64,000 nt of DNA from Acidobacteriota bacterium (GTDB taxonomy: Bacteria > Acidobacteriota > Terriglobia > Versatilivoradales > Versatilivoraceae). Of the stretch, positions 46,885 to 52,574 are shown one piece after another. Both the position numbers and the translations under genes were made by a program. Location: positions 1-64,000 of the forward strand of contig JAJDUG010000079.1 of the NCBI GenBank assembly GCA_022826755.1, given 5' to 3'. Under the pieces are notes generated by a model. The model saw only the letters and a program-made list of their open reading frames with translations. It ran no database searches and had not been told where the DNA came from. Numbering within the stretch: position 1 is the first letter of the stretch; each line of letters begins with the position of its first letter.

Positions 46885-47580
46885 ATGCTTCAGGTCTCAG
46901 TGGCGGCGCCCTGCAACGGCTCCGGTAAAACATCGCTCCTGCTGGCCATTCTGCAAGCCTTTCCGGGCGCTTTTGCAACCGCCAAGTTCACCACCATCTA
47001 TCGGGAGGAACAGTTCTGCCCGGTCGGAGACAGCGGCTGCCCCTGCCATCGCCTGGAGGGGAGTTTCCTGCTGTGCGAAGACCTCGATATTCTGGCTCAA
47101 CCCGATACGGACACGGGGAAACTGGTGCAGGCCGGCGCCAGACAGACATTCTGGGGTGTGGCCCGGCCTGACGGATACCCGGCACTGGTGGATCTGCTCC
47201 GCAGGGATCGCTTCCGCGAAAGCACCCTGCTGTTGACCGAGGGGAACACCGTCCTGGGACACCTGGCGCCCGATTTGCTGCTGTTCGTCGTGAATCCCCT
47301 GCTTCCCCGGGATCGGTGGAAGGGCGACTCCGAACGGCTCCTGGAGGCAGCCGACCTGGTGGTGGTCAACCCGTTCCTTCCGGAAGCCGACCGGTCCGGC
47401 GCCGCCCAAGACCCTTCCATCGGACAGGCATTGGATCGCCATGCCGACAAATGCGTCCGCGGTCGAGCCGGCGTGCGGCTGGACCGCTGGAAAGACCGGC
47501 GCCCCTTCGAGGCCATCCAGGCGCTGCTGAAGGATTCTGCGAGGCCACCCGTCCCGGAGTGGGTGGCGGACGGACCTTGA
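46885..47580 (+). CDS. P-loop NTPase of unknown function, 231 aa
   Basis: ATG 46885 starts MLQVSVAAPCNGSGKTSLLL, with the Walker A motif APCNGSGKT at residues 8-16. A Cys cluster follows (CPVGDSGCPC, residues ~46-55). TEGNTVLGHLAPDLLLFVVN is a probable Walker B/switch region. The layout resembles MobB-like P-loop proteins that hand on cofactors, and the Cys group could bind a metal or Fe-S cluster. I cannot assign it more closely. It follows the ROK gene by 105 bases and precedes slt by 26. Confidence 0.72.
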   Translation: MLQVSVAAPCNGSGKTSLLLAILQAFPGAFATAKFTTIYREEQFCPVGDSGCPCHRLEGSFLLCEDLDILAQPDTDTGKLVQAGARQTFWGVARPDGYPALVDLLRRDRFRESTLLLTEGNTVLGHLAPDLLLFVVNPLLPRDRWKGDSERLLEAADLVVVNPFLPEADRSGAAQDPSIGQALDRHADKCVRGRAGVRLDRWKDRRPFEAIQALLKDSARPPVPEWVADGP

Positions 47581-47606
47581 GCCGACTTCATTCCTTCCCC
47601 ACTCCA

Positions 47607-49868
47607 ATGATCGATTCCAAAGTGGCGGCTTGGCTGGAAAAGGACGCGGCCCCGGATCGCCTCCTCCGGGGCGCCCCTGCGATCCTGCTAATCCTGCTTC
47701 TGTTCCCCTCCGCTTGGGGCGCCGGAGCCCTGGCCCAGGGCTCGGACGAGGTCCGTTTCGAGCAGCTTTGCCGCAATTTGGTGCACGAAAACTCCCCTTC
47801 CGCCCGACAGGAACTGCTGGAGTTCAGCCGACAGAACCCGCAGAGTCCTCTGGCTGCACTCGGGTACTACCTGCTGGGCTACCGGGACCTTCAGCAGGGT
47901 CGTCCGGAATCGGCGCTGGATGCACTGGAACTGGCGCTGCTCGGTGCCGACCAGGTCCCCATCCCGGATTTCATCCTCTATCACCACGCCAAGGCCCTGC
48001 ACGAGCTCAATCGTCCCGCAGGCGCCATCGAGGGGTGGCTGACCTACCTGAGGCGGTTTCCCCGAGGCCATTTTGCCCGGAAGGCCATCGCATTCCTCTG
48101 GGAAGACGCTCTCATGGCGGGAAGCCCTCAACTTATACTTGATTCTCATCGGGATTGGCCCCATCTGTCCAAGTCTGCCGAAGCCCTCTTCTACACCGCG
48201 GCGGCTCATGAGTCCAGGGGAGAAACCCGACGATCCATCGACGGCTACCTCCGCCTGCACTACCGGTTTCCCTTGAGCCGGGTGAGCCCGAAAGCTCTGG
48301 CGGCCATCAAACGCCTGCAGCTCGACCACCCCGGGGAGTCCTTCGAGGTCCCACCTGGCTGGAAGCGGGCGCGGGCGGAAGAGCTCTTCAAGGGAAAACG
48401 CTACCGGCAGGCGGTGGAGGCATTGAACGCAGCCCTGGAAACGACCGGCTCACCCGCCGAAAAGGCCAGGCTTCAGTTGTGGCGGGCCATTTCCGAATTT
48501 CACTCCAGAAGGCAACGGGAATCGCTCCGAACACTGCAGGCCTTGCCGTCCGAATTTGCGCTGCAGCCTCAGGCCTTGTTCTACCGGGCCGAGAACTACC
48601 GCCGACTCGCCGACGACGCTTCATTCCTCCGAACAGTTCGCCGGATAGAGCAGCGTTACCCCAGGTCCTCCTGGCTGGAGAGAGCCTGGTTCAGCCTGGC
48701 GAACTCCCGGTTGGTCAAGCGCGATCTGGATGAGGCCAACCGCTTCTACCGCAAGATGGCCGACCGTTTCGCGAGCGGAGCACGGGTCACACGCGCCCAC
48801 TGGCGTGTGGCCTGGCACCACTACAGGCAACGCAACCATCGCAGTGCCCTTGCCCTGTTCACCGAACACCTCCAGCGGTTTCCGCGATCGCCTCACCGGC
48901 CGGCCGCTCTCTACTGGACCGCTCGCATCCGGGAGGATTCCGGAGATTCCGCCCAAGCCCGGGCCATTTACCAGTCAATCACCGAGCTCTTCAGCAACCA
49001 CTACTATGCTCAACGGTCCAGGGAGCGCCTGGCAGGAAACCCGCCGGCCAGGGAAGACCAGTCGGCGCTGGAGCCGACGCTTTCCGGGATTCTGGACCGT
49101 TTCAAGGGCCGCACCGCCGCCCGATTCTCCTCCAAGGCCGCTCAGGTTCCCGACCTGCCGGGACAGCTCTCCGCCAGAGTCAGGACGCTTGGCTTGATCC
49201 ATATGTTCGAGGCCGCGGCCGGAGAGTTCCTCCGAACCAGCCCGAACACGCGAGGCACACAACTTCAGGCAGCCATGCTCCTCCACCGGGGAGGCCACTA
49301 CCGGGCCTCCACTTCCCACTTGCAGCAACTCTTCCCGGGGTTTGTCTACCGGTCCCTGGCCACCCTTCCCAGAGAAATCTGGCGGATGCTCCTACCCATC
49401 GAATACGCCCCGCTCTTTGCTCGGGAAGCCCGAAGACACGGGCTCGATCCCTACCTGCTGGTGGCGCTGGTCCGCCAGGAATCAGCATTCGACCGCCGAG
49501 CCGTTTCGGTGGCGCAGGCCCGGGGACTGATGCAGCTCATTCCCCCTACGGCCAAAACAGTGGCGCGCCAACTTCAATTGGACCGCTTCTCAATTGACCA
49601 ACTCTTCCTTCCGCAGTTGAACATTCGCCTGGGAAGCCAGTACCTGGCCGACCGCCTGGCACAGTTCGGAGGAAACGTCGACCAGGCCGTGGCCAGCTAC
49701 AACGCCGGGCCCGACCCTGTCACCCTGTGGCTCAGCGAGGGCGACTACCGGGAAGCGGCCGAGTTCGTGGAAAATATTCCCTTCACCGAGACCAGGAACT
49801 ACGTCAAGATCTTCCACCGCAACTACCGTTTGTATCAACAGCTTTACGGTGAGGCCCTCGGAGAATAG
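47607..49868 (+). CDS. slt: Soluble lytic transglycosylase (Slt70-like), 753 aa
   Basis: A signal/anchor segment (about residues 22-45) is followed by a long helical superhelix of TPR-like repeats (about 55-560; FEQLCRNLVHENSPSARQEL, YYLLGYRDLQQGRPESALDA) and a C-terminal SLT domain. The catalytic Glu625 lies in VRQESAFDRR, with GLMQLIPPTA, NIRLGSQYLADRL and AVASYNAGP as the goose-lysozyme motifs. The enzyme cleaves the MurNAc-GlcNAc bond of peptidoglycan to give anhydro-muropeptides. ATG 47607 begins the signal segment; the open frame further upstream is not coding-like. Confidence 0.92.
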   Translation: MIDSKVAAWLEKDAAPDRLLRGAPAILLILLLFPSAWGAGALAQGSDEVRFEQLCRNLVHENSPSARQELLEFSRQNPQSPLAALGYYLLGYRDLQQGRPESALDALELALLGADQVPIPDFILYHHAKALHELNRPAGAIEGWLTYLRRFPRGHFARKAIAFLWEDALMAGSPQLILDSHRDWPHLSKSAEALFYTAAAHESRGETRRSIDGYLRLHYRFPLSRVSPKALAAIKRLQLDHPGESFEVPPGWKRARAEELFKGKRYRQAVEALNAALETTGSPAEKARLQLWRAISEFHSRRQRESLRTLQALPSEFALQPQALFYRAENYRRLADDASFLRTVRRIEQRYPRSSWLERAWFSLANSRLVKRDLDEANRFYRKMADRFASGARVTRAHWRVAWHHYRQRNHRSALALFTEHLQRFPRSPHRPAALYWTARIREDSGDSAQARAIYQSITELFSNHYYAQRSRERLAGNPPAREDQSALEPTLSGILDRFKGRTAARFSSKAAQVPDLPGQLSARVRTLGLIHMFEAAAGEFLRTSPNTRGTQLQAAMLLHRGGHYRASTSHLQQLFPGFVYRSLATLPREIWRMLLPIEYAPLFAREARRHGLDPYLLVALVRQESAFDRRAVSVAQARGLMQLIPPTAKTVARQLQLDRFSIDQLFLPQLNIRLGSQYLADRLAQFGGNVDQAVASYNAGPDPVTLWLSEGDYREAAEFVENIPFTETRNYVKIFHRNYRLYQQLYGEALGE

Positions 49869-49929: not shown

Positions 49930-50178
49930 GTTAACCCGCATTTCTCACCAGGGGGCATGATCATGGCGCAGGATTTTTCCCTCCAGCGCGTGCTCGTGAC
50001 CGAAGAGCGTAGCGGTTTCTACGGTCGAGGGAGCATGTGCGCGCTGGAGGGAAAAAGACAAGTCAGGGCATGCCCAGCACAGTCTGCTTTTTTGCAATCC
50101 CCCCAAAGGACCCATAACGTATTGAAAATACACAGTCTCTAACAATGCAGGTGCGTCCTGGTGAGAAATCGGGTTGAC
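49930..50178. mobile_element. MITE-like element, 249 bp, with terminal inverted repeats
   Basis: The left end 49930-49952 reads GTTAACCCGCATTTCTCACC and then AGG. The right end 50157-50178 is its reverse complement except for one mismatch and one missing base, an imperfect inverted repeat of about 22 bp. Inside, near the left end, a 17-bp perfect inverted repeat (49974-49990 with 50040-50056) plus 5 further pairs forms a long hairpin. There is no transposase frame. I could not find a target duplication, so the exact outer ends are uncertain. It inserts between convergent operons, the usual place for such elements. Confidence 0.6.
49974..50056. repeat. Long hairpin inside the MITE-like element
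   Basis: Arms TTTTTCCCTCCAGCGCG and CGCGCTGGAGGGAAAAA are perfectly complementary. The stem continues with TGCTC/GAGCA across a 4-base bulge. The apical part (around 49996-50030) can fold again through GACC...GGTC and CGTAG...CTACG. If transcribed, it would be a stable structured RNA. Confidence 0.65.
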
Positions 50179-50276: not shown

Positions 50277-52574
50277 CTACTCCGTGCGGGATCTCGGCCT
50301 GCGAAGCAGTCGCAGGCCGTTGAAGATCACGACGAGGGTTGCGCCCATATCGGCGGCGACTGCCAGCCACAATGTCGCCAGGTTCTGGGCCGCCAATCCC
50401 AGGAAAAGCAACTTGAAGCCCAGGGCAATGGCGACGTTCTGGCGGATCACGCGCAGGCACAGGCGCCCGGTCCGGATGAGATCCGGCAACAGCTCGAGAC
50501 GGGGAGACATCAGCACGACCTGAGCCGACTCCAGGGCGATGTCCGCCCCGCCGCCTCCCACGCCGACGCCGAGCGAGGCGGCGACGAGCGCTTCGGCGTC
50601 GTTGACGCCGTCGCCGACCATGGCGGTACGCCCGCACCTCTTTTCGAGTTCTTCGATGGCGGCGCGCTTGTCTTCCGGCAGGAGGGGGCCTTGGGCCTCG
50701 TCAATCCCCACCTCCTCGCGGACGGCTTCGACCGCGGAGTGATGATCACCGCTCAAAATGGCGGTATGGGTGACTCCGAGTTGGCGCAGCTCCGCGACCA
50801 CGCGGCGTGCCTCCGGGCGGACCGGATCGCGAAGCCGCACAAGAGCCCAGGGCGTCTCACCTTCTCCGCAGATCACGATGGTGCCGGCTTGCGACGCCAG
50901 CAAGGCGTGCGCTTCCGGACCCAAGTCCGCGCCGGCGTGATCGAGCATGCGCGAGTTGCCGGCCCAGAAGCGGGCCGCGCCGATGAGAGCCGAGGCGCCG
51001 ATGCCGCGCTCGATGCGGAACTGCTCGACCTGATGCGGCAAGATGCCCCGTTCGGCGGCATGGGCGACGATCGCACGAGCGAGCGGGTGTTCGCTGTATT
51101 GCTCGAGCGCTGCCAGTCGAGCCAGGATTCCGGAGAGGTCTCGCCCCTGCAGCGGTACGATCTCCTCGACCTCCGGCACGCCGGCCGTCAGCACGCCGGT
51201 CTTGTCGAAGGCGATGGTGCGAACGCGAGCCGCTTCTTCGAGGAAAGCTCCGCCTTTGACCAGCAACCCGCGCCGGGCGGCTTTGGCGACAGCCGCTGCG
51301 ATCGCCACCGGAGTCGAGATGACCAGGGCGCAGGGGCAGGAAATGAGAAGTGTCAACATGCCGCGGTAGAACCACGGCGAAAACGGCGCGCCGGCCAACA
51401 ACGGCGGGCCCGCTGCGATGCCCGCCGCCAACAGAAACATCGCCGGGGTGTAGTAGCGGGCAAAGCGGTCGACGAATCTCTCCGATGGAGCCCGTCGATG
51501 CCGACTCTCCTCGAGCATGCGCAGAACGCGGGCGAGACGGGTGTCGTCCGCGACTCTGGTGGTGCGGATATCGAGCACCCCGTCACTGTTGAAGGTCCCG
51601 GCGTAGACAGGGTCTCCGGGGCGCTTCATGGTCGGCACCGGCTCGCCCGTGAGCATCGATTCGTTCACCCCGGATATTCCGACTTCGACCTCTCCATCGC
51701 ACGGCACATGCTCGCCCGGTCGAACGCGCACCAGGGACCCCACCGCCACAGAAGCGGCCGGGACCCGATGCTCGTGGTCGCCATGAACGACTGACGCCTG
51801 TTGTGGAGCGACCGCCATCAAGCCGCCGACCTCGCGCCGGGCACGGGCCATGCTCCAGCCCTCCAACCGGCCGGCCAATGAGAACAGGAAGGCCAGAGTC
51901 GCCGCCTCCGCCCATTCGTTCAGCCACGCCGCGCCAATGAGGGAGACCACAACCAGAGCGTTCATGTCCGGACGAAGGGCGGCCAGGGACCTGATTCCCT
52001 TGGGGACGACGAGGGCGACGCCGCTGGCGATGGCGACCAGGAAACAGACCAGCGCAGCCGGCGTTTCGCCCACGTGCCGATGGGTGATCGCCGCCATCCA
52101 TTCCCCTGAGCCGGCGGCATGCACAACAAAGCCGAGTGCGAGGGCCAGGCCGCTGACGCCGGCCAGCAGATCCTGTCCCCGGCGCTCGAAGAACGCGCTC
52201 TCCCGAGCCGGCTCTTCCCACGGCTGGCATTCCAGCCCGAGCGCCGAGACCTGCGCGGCGATGTCCCTGGCGGTCAAGGCCCGCGGGTCGAAGGCCGCGG
52301 TCAGCTTTCCCCTGATGACATCGAAGCGGAGTTCCTCGATGCCCGGCTCCCCGTCGAGCCGTCTGCGGATGGCGCCGACCTCTTCGGCGCAATCCAGGCC
52401 GTAGACCCGGTACTCGGCGGTTTCCCTATGTTCGGATTTGGCGGTTGGCAAGAGCGTTGGAGTGCCTGGTGTCCTGTTAACGGTGTCTGGCCTGGGGGCG
52501 ATCTCCAGGGTTTCTCTCGCGACCGATCCGTCTGCATCGATGAACGGGACACATCTCCGGATGGGTGGGAGCAA
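50277..52574 (-). CDS. P1B-type heavy-metal ATPase (Zn/Cd class), 765 aa
   Basis: The N-terminal HMA-like domain has one Cys in VYGLDCAEEVGAIRRRLDG instead of the usual CxxC. The transmembrane metal motif is SCPCALVISTP, the CPC-type sequence found in Zn/Cd/Pb exporters. The phosphorylated Asp457 lies in DKTGVLT (usually DKTGTLT), and the HP motif is SEHPLARAI. GDGVNDAEAL replaces the usual GDGxNDxPAL. The domains are complete and the length is normal. It is the last gene of the metal operon and would export excess metal or load a periplasmic target. The start is uncertain: TTG 52574 is the longest; the HMA domain begins about 52 codons in. Confidence 0.9.
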   Translation of the reverse strand: MLPPIRRCVPFIDADGSVARETLEIAPRPDTVNRTPGTPTLLPTAKSEHRETAEYRVYGLDCAEEVGAIRRRLDGEPGIEELRFDVIRGKLTAAFDPRALTARDIAAQVSALGLECQPWEEPARESAFFERRGQDLLAGVSGLALALGFVVHAAGSGEWMAAITHRHVGETPAALVCFLVAIASGVALVVPKGIRSLAALRPDMNALVVVSLIGAAWLNEWAEAATLAFLFSLAGRLEGWSMARARREVGGLMAVAPQQASVVHGDHEHRVPAASVAVGSLVRVRPGEHVPCDGEVEVGISGVNESMLTGEPVPTMKRPGDPVYAGTFNSDGVLDIRTTRVADDTRLARVLRMLEESRHRRAPSERFVDRFARYYTPAMFLLAAGIAAGPPLLAGAPFSPWFYRGMLTLLISCPCALVISTPVAIAAAVAKAARRGLLVKGGAFLEEAARVRTIAFDKTGVLTAGVPEVEEIVPLQGRDLSGILARLAALEQYSEHPLARAIVAHAAERGILPHQVEQFRIERGIGASALIGAARFWAGNSRMLDHAGADLGPEAHALLASQAGTIVICGEGETPWALVRLRDPVRPEARRVVAELRQLGVTHTAILSGDHHSAVEAVREEVGIDEAQGPLLPEDKRAAIEELEKRCGRTAMVGDGVNDAEALVAASLGVGVGGGGADIALESAQVVLMSPRLELLPDLIRTGRLCLRVIRQNVAIALGFKLLFLGLAAQNLATLWLAVAADMGATLVVIFNGLRLLRRPRSRTE

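Follow-up and report, generated by a model that had tools for sequence, protein, structure and literature searches.

A genus-specific IS1380-type MITE of Acidobacteriota carrying a covarying hairpin that may serve its own propagation

We investigated a stretch of 64,000 nucleotides (the window) from an Acidobacteriota bacterium, located on contig C41 of the source genome G000, which comprises 4.6 Mb in 81 contigs. A 239-bp mobile element there has a gene for a TPR/SLT lytic transglycosylase on one side and, on the other, a convergent gene for a heavy-metal P-type ATPase. The features of the locus are as follows.

47316-49868, + strand: TPR/SLT lytic transglycosylase gene, start uncertain, stopping 66 bases upstream of the element
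49931-49934, no strand: left target duplication, TTAA (the empty site in genome G001 reads TTCA)
49935-50173, + strand: mobile element, 239 bp, hairpin module first, ends set on 99 end pairs
49935-49952, + strand: left terminal inverted repeat CCCGCATTTCTCACCAGG, IS1380-type, common to the PF13701-bearing relic L061
49953-50075, + strand: conserved hairpin module, 39 modelled pairs, covariation on 82 copies, covariance model R1
49975-49991, + strand: main stem, 5' arm
50008-50023, + strand: apical stem-loop CGTAG...CTACG, almost invariant
50039-50055, + strand: main stem, 3' arm
50076-50156, + strand: right half of the element, fast-evolving
50157-50173, - strand: right terminal inverted repeat, CCCGCATTTCTCACCAGG minus one base and thus one base shorter than the family's
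50174-50177, no strand: right target duplication, TTGA
50277-52574, - strand: heavy-metal P-type ATPase gene, convergent neighbour

An earlier note on this DNA, made from the sequence alone, described positions 49930-50178 as MITE-like, with imperfect terminal inverted repeats of about 22 bp, a long internal hairpin with a stem of 17 bp or more and no coding sequence. This description has stood up well, and the three checks suggested there all turned out in its favour: other copies exist, a target duplication flanks the element and a relative has the empty site, and transposase-bearing elements have identical or similar ends. A repeat search of the window returned a terminal repeat of 18 nt (49940-49957/50152-50169, 89% complementary) and a perfect internal inverted repeat of 17 nt (49974-49990/50040-50056). 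With boundaries taken from the family, the element proper is 49935-50173 and its terminal inverted repeats are 18 bp (left) and 17 bp (right) long; they are imperfect in the window copy because the right end lost one base. The region 49930-50178, folded as RNA, reaches -121.4 kcal/mol, compared with -77.0 ± 4.6 kcal/mol for 200 dinucleotide shuffles (z -9.8), and the z value of the minus strand is -5.9. A protein-coding reading was rejected, since the frame changes freely between copies and is broken by an in-frame TAG in copy L066, in which the hairpin is intact. An intrinsic terminator was rejected as well: the 3' arm has A rather than T at its end, and a search for terminators gave none. 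We found no promoter-like site for the element, no Rfam match in the window (up to E 10 there were only chance-level hits, none near a gathering score), and nothing in tRNA and tmRNA searches.

Further copies, which the earlier note had proposed to look for, are numerous. The source genome holds 41 BLAST pieces at E <= 2e-6 in 40 distinct places, a number that includes partial copies and possibly some double counting, as several places touch contig ends or lie 30 bases or less from them. The element is present in all seven genomes of the genus, and covariance model R1 of the hairpin half matches exactly these seven among 299 genomes of the class; the other 292, including five from other genera of the family, gave no match. 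Four named Acidobacteriota MAGs (Candidatus Versatilivorator vitaminiformans m_rhlh7, jk18xAbins.46, SB0661_bin_38 and RHO1_bin_34) contain its exact 27-base core, in 46 stretches altogether, and no stretch of viral contigs does. Comparison with related genomes shows that it was inserted: the two flanking genes are also adjacent in G001, where the flanks run continuously through an empty site, and for six of nine further copies of the source genome the joined flanks align through in relatives. Among the end pairs in the fetched loci, 95 of 99 span 120-244 bp, with family members mostly 240-244 bp. The 95-96 copies analysed below are those neither cut by contig ends nor differing at more than 2 of 15 end bases; the window copy was entered manually owing to its right-end deletion. 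One 2316-bp end pair (L134) was dropped, as an unrelated reading frame of 675 aa lies between its ends on the opposite strand. Short, dispersed, bounded by inverted repeats, flanked by target duplications, matched by empty sites and lacking a transposase gene, the element is almost certainly a non-autonomous MITE.

The target duplications define the insertion site. Identical 4-mers flank 32 of the 95 copies with both flanks (94 fetched end pairs plus the window copy), whereas the next 4-mers outward, taken as a control, are identical in only one. CTAG and TTAA are the commonest duplications, CTAG leads on both sides, and some duplications appear to be 5 bp (CTTAG). The targets are 4-bp palindromes, mostly CTAG or TTAA, in which a stop codon (TAG/TAA) can be read on either strand. 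The duplications of the other 63 copies differ as 4-mers, among them TTAA and TTGA at the window copy; decay, 5-bp duplications or other causes, including an element that carries its own 4-nt overhang, may account for this.

Many copies sit at gene ends. A predicted stop codon inside the duplication is found in 33 of 96 copies, or at 29 of 83 independent sites when shared sites are counted once, according to a home-made gene finder based on codon usage. The window copy is not at a stop codon, and L066 and L183 each lie between two converging genes, both of which terminate at the element. The excess is modest (29 of 83; background of available non-coding or stop sites, 54 of 253; p 0.004), and this background partly contains the elements themselves. 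Nine stop-abutting copies were searched in the genus, and six of them (L009, L010, L045, L122, L125 and L129) have relatives aligned through the junction. In these alignments, judged by eye, nearly all relatives show TAG, TAA or TGA without the element, the exception being L294, a relative of L129. The six tested sites are therefore natural stops, and the duplication restores the stop codon. Since both strands of CTAG and TTAA contain TAG or TAA, a gene hit at its natural stop still ends in one, which helps to explain why many copies lie exactly at stops. We considered an active preference for stop codons; target sequence together with selection may be the cause of most of the excess. A palindromic target can thus render insertions into tightly packed gene ends harmless. 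A TAA target supplies the stop codon of ISPsp10, of the IS5 family (PMC4133298), and QMITE2 sits at the 3' end of enhC (PMC5896051). The present family differs: at many sites its palindromic target restores the stop of the host gene, whichever side the gene lies on.

The ends also indicate the parentage, which the earlier note had called unknown and which can now be assigned to the IS1380 family, with only relics in this genus. In the source genome, the relic L061 has a fragment of PF13701 (IS1380 transposase) between the same ends as the element, and in another family L092 is a full-length PF13701 element of 1729 bp with similar ends and a CTAG duplication. In L104, an IS1380 start is located behind CTAGCCCGAATTTCTCATC. 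The end consensus common to the element and the IS1380 types is CCCG(C/G)ATTTCTCACC, and CCCGCATTTCTCACCAG is the end sequence by which an intact IS1380 copy of the genus could be recognised. The element resembles IS1380 in its CCC ends, its CTAG/TTAA-type target and the same-ended relic, but it has no transposase and apparently shares only its ends with the IS relics; among the 31 loci fetched with PF13701, the hairpin model has no match. Mobilisation in trans by an IS1380 transposase is probable. The seven genus genomes contain fragments of PF13701 but no complete gene, and G005, a single contig, has none although it keeps copies of the element. As the genus yielded no intact transposase, the family may be immobile there today. 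PMC10813416 describes TTAA duplications (rarely TTAG, CTAA or TCAA) and CCC-starting ends for animal piggyBac; the CTAG/TTAA targets and CCC ends of the present family fit the IS1380-piggyBac relationship presented there. The hairpin, the many copies and the intergenic position would also be expected of a REP/REPIN-type element moved by a hairpin-recognising Y1 (RAYT/IS200-like) transposase. This origin is extremely improbable and largely refuted: Y1_Tnp (PF01797) is absent from the source genome while it is matched in 5 of 14 control genomes, and terminal inverted repeats with 4-bp duplications are of the DDE type. We regard the elements as a genus-specific family of IS1380-type MITEs that is new relative to the literature searched, in which we found no description of IS1380-derived MITEs with a CTAG target; subscription journals were mostly outside that coverage.

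Two further observations concern IS1380 relatives. In the genus relics L104 (1389-1480) and L061 (1870-2000), an inverted repeat surrounds the transposase start codon (GCATCGGTTCTC...GAGAACCGATGC in L104), as if the start were hidden in a hairpin. In genome G007, of the same family, one PF13701 fragment (positions 10-92) recurs with equal score in about 20 pieces, many of them near contig ends; an IS1380-like element has probably multiplied recently in this related genus.

We aligned 82 of the 83 distinct left modules, omitting L016, which is cut too short. Across these copies the module folds into a single long hairpin with interruptions, and of 3198 cells 98.1% pair. Both sides have changed in 96 cells, compared with 27.2 ± 3.8 after shuffling and 4-37 in slid controls. 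Counted as pairs with a double change the signal is weaker: there are eight, a number reached by 53 of 500 shuffles. Matched stem triplets include TCC/GGA, TTC/GAA, TAC/GTA and CTC/GAG. On a tree of the right half alone, a standard pair is kept in 18 of 22 changes on inner branches versus 63 of 118 on tips; given the mutation spectrum of the right half, chance would give about 30%. If the tree is built on the hairpin instead, the contrast between inner branches and tips has p 0.066. Events from Watson-Crick to GU exceed those from Watson-Crick to AC by 45 to 16, and for this reason the + strand may be the folded one. This strand signal is weak: the pair-wise count differs from the right half (45:16 against 152:113, p 0.020), whereas for paired columns taken singly (54:29) neither the comparison with unpaired columns (24:23, p 0.14) nor that with the right half (152:113, p 0.25) is significant.

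The matched changes might be a mutational by-product, in which template switching at the inverted repeats rewrites one arm without any selection. The repeat itself suffices for this process, and single stem columns may have been changed in this way. As an account of the module we consider it improbable, since unpaired module columns are as slow as paired ones (1.68 and 1.62 events per column, compared with 6.5 in the right half), so that arm correction does not account for the slowness, and since GU outcomes outnumber AC outcomes.

The constraint on the module appears only over longer distances. The ratio of left to right divergence falls from 0.85-2.0 in close copies to 0.22-0.30 in distant copies. 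In close copies (right-half divergence below 6%) the module diverges at about the rate of the right half or faster, whereas in distant copies it is 3-5 times slower and the ends are likewise slow. Finding the copies by their similarity to the window could contribute to this pattern, but no copy was seen in which the hairpin had diverged while the right half was conserved. Hairpin-less copies lack the whole module, apparently through deletion between short direct repeats. All seven family members among them have a full-length copy as their nearest relative (an eighth short element, L128, was excluded, its interior being unrelated), and for this reason the hairpin-less forms seem to be separate dead ends that do not multiply. 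We read the constraint as acting along the propagating lineage, because the module is slow only between distant copies.

Orthologous sites give a different hint. In eight independent orthologous pairs, the element is far more alike than its flanks in five, about equally alike in one and less alike in two; the differences are, for example, 1/244 in the element and 42/397 in the flanks, or 1/241 and 39/400. These pairs suggest that, at some sites, copies are selected where they lie or exchange sequence with one another. These five pairs, together with the 29 independent sites at stop codons, would suit a hairpin that serves the host where it lies, as a 3' UTR or small-RNA element acting on mRNA stability or RNase processing, like ERIC or Correia. 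Such a role is possible but rather unlikely, considering that there is no orientation preference (22 sense and 25 antisense copies between tandem genes; 19 and 12 among stop-abutting copies, p 0.28), that close copies show no added constraint on the hairpin, and that few sites are common to species among the copies fetched.

We favour a non-autonomous IS1380-type MITE whose hairpin is maintained because, folded as a single strand, it serves the propagation of the element itself, and give this explanation a probability of about 0.75. An IS1380 transposase would act in trans on two ends of roughly 18 bp and insert the element into 4-bp palindromes (CTAG, TTAA and variants), which are duplicated. 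The element is bipartite, with the left hairpin module maintained by compensatory changes. This module would fold as a single strand, most likely RNA read in the + direction of the window, a single-stranded DNA hairpin being possible too, and would be required in cis for multiplication. The role of the hairpin in propagation is deduced here from patterns of sequence change. More broadly, it is conceivable, if tentative, that non-autonomous members of an IS1380/piggyBac-type lineage depend on an element-encoded folded RNA or single-stranded DNA hairpin kept by compensatory evolution. No such hairpin requirement is known for the IS1380/piggyBac group, and MITE hairpins are usually reported as no more than folding predictions. 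The family stands out in two respects: its palindromic targets let it land on stop codons, and its hairpin covaries and behaves as if the element required it. With more than 80 copies in one genus, the needed parts can be separated from the drifting ones, and the hairpin behaves like the ends. A part for a structured strand in IS1380/piggyBac-type transposition, or in the keeping of such copies, would be directly testable.

The Correia/NEMIS, ERIC, RUP and QMITE1/2 elements have ends that differ from those of the present element. They resemble it in their small size, inverted-repeat ends, many copies and stable predicted stem-loops (PMC2229807, PMC10969869, PMC5896051), and they reside in other hosts. 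In the present element, a hairpin module lying within the ends covaries between species and changes more slowly than the remainder; in the literature examined we found no covariation analysis of those MITEs, and the string 'compensat' is absent from the main texts of PMC2229807 and PMC5896051.

Several places show unusual arrangements of copies. At G000:C50:4352-4389 and G000:C46:136060-136098, two family ends stand back to back a few bases apart, which suggests neighbouring insertion. Lone perfect ends at G000:C3:16154, C9:153560, C29:71349 and C51:3844 (L032, L044, L048 and L124) are either truncated copies or another type of element with one diverged end. The stop codon at G000:C22:30226-30348 (L045) carries a short copy in the source genome; in G004 and G006 (L182 and L194) full copies belonging to a different subtype occupy it, and the site is empty in G001 and G002; either repeated insertion or loss occurred at this one position. 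In L131 (about 1125-1215), a truncated copy lies immediately upstream of a gene that, from its protein start, we take to resemble that of ribosomal protein S5.
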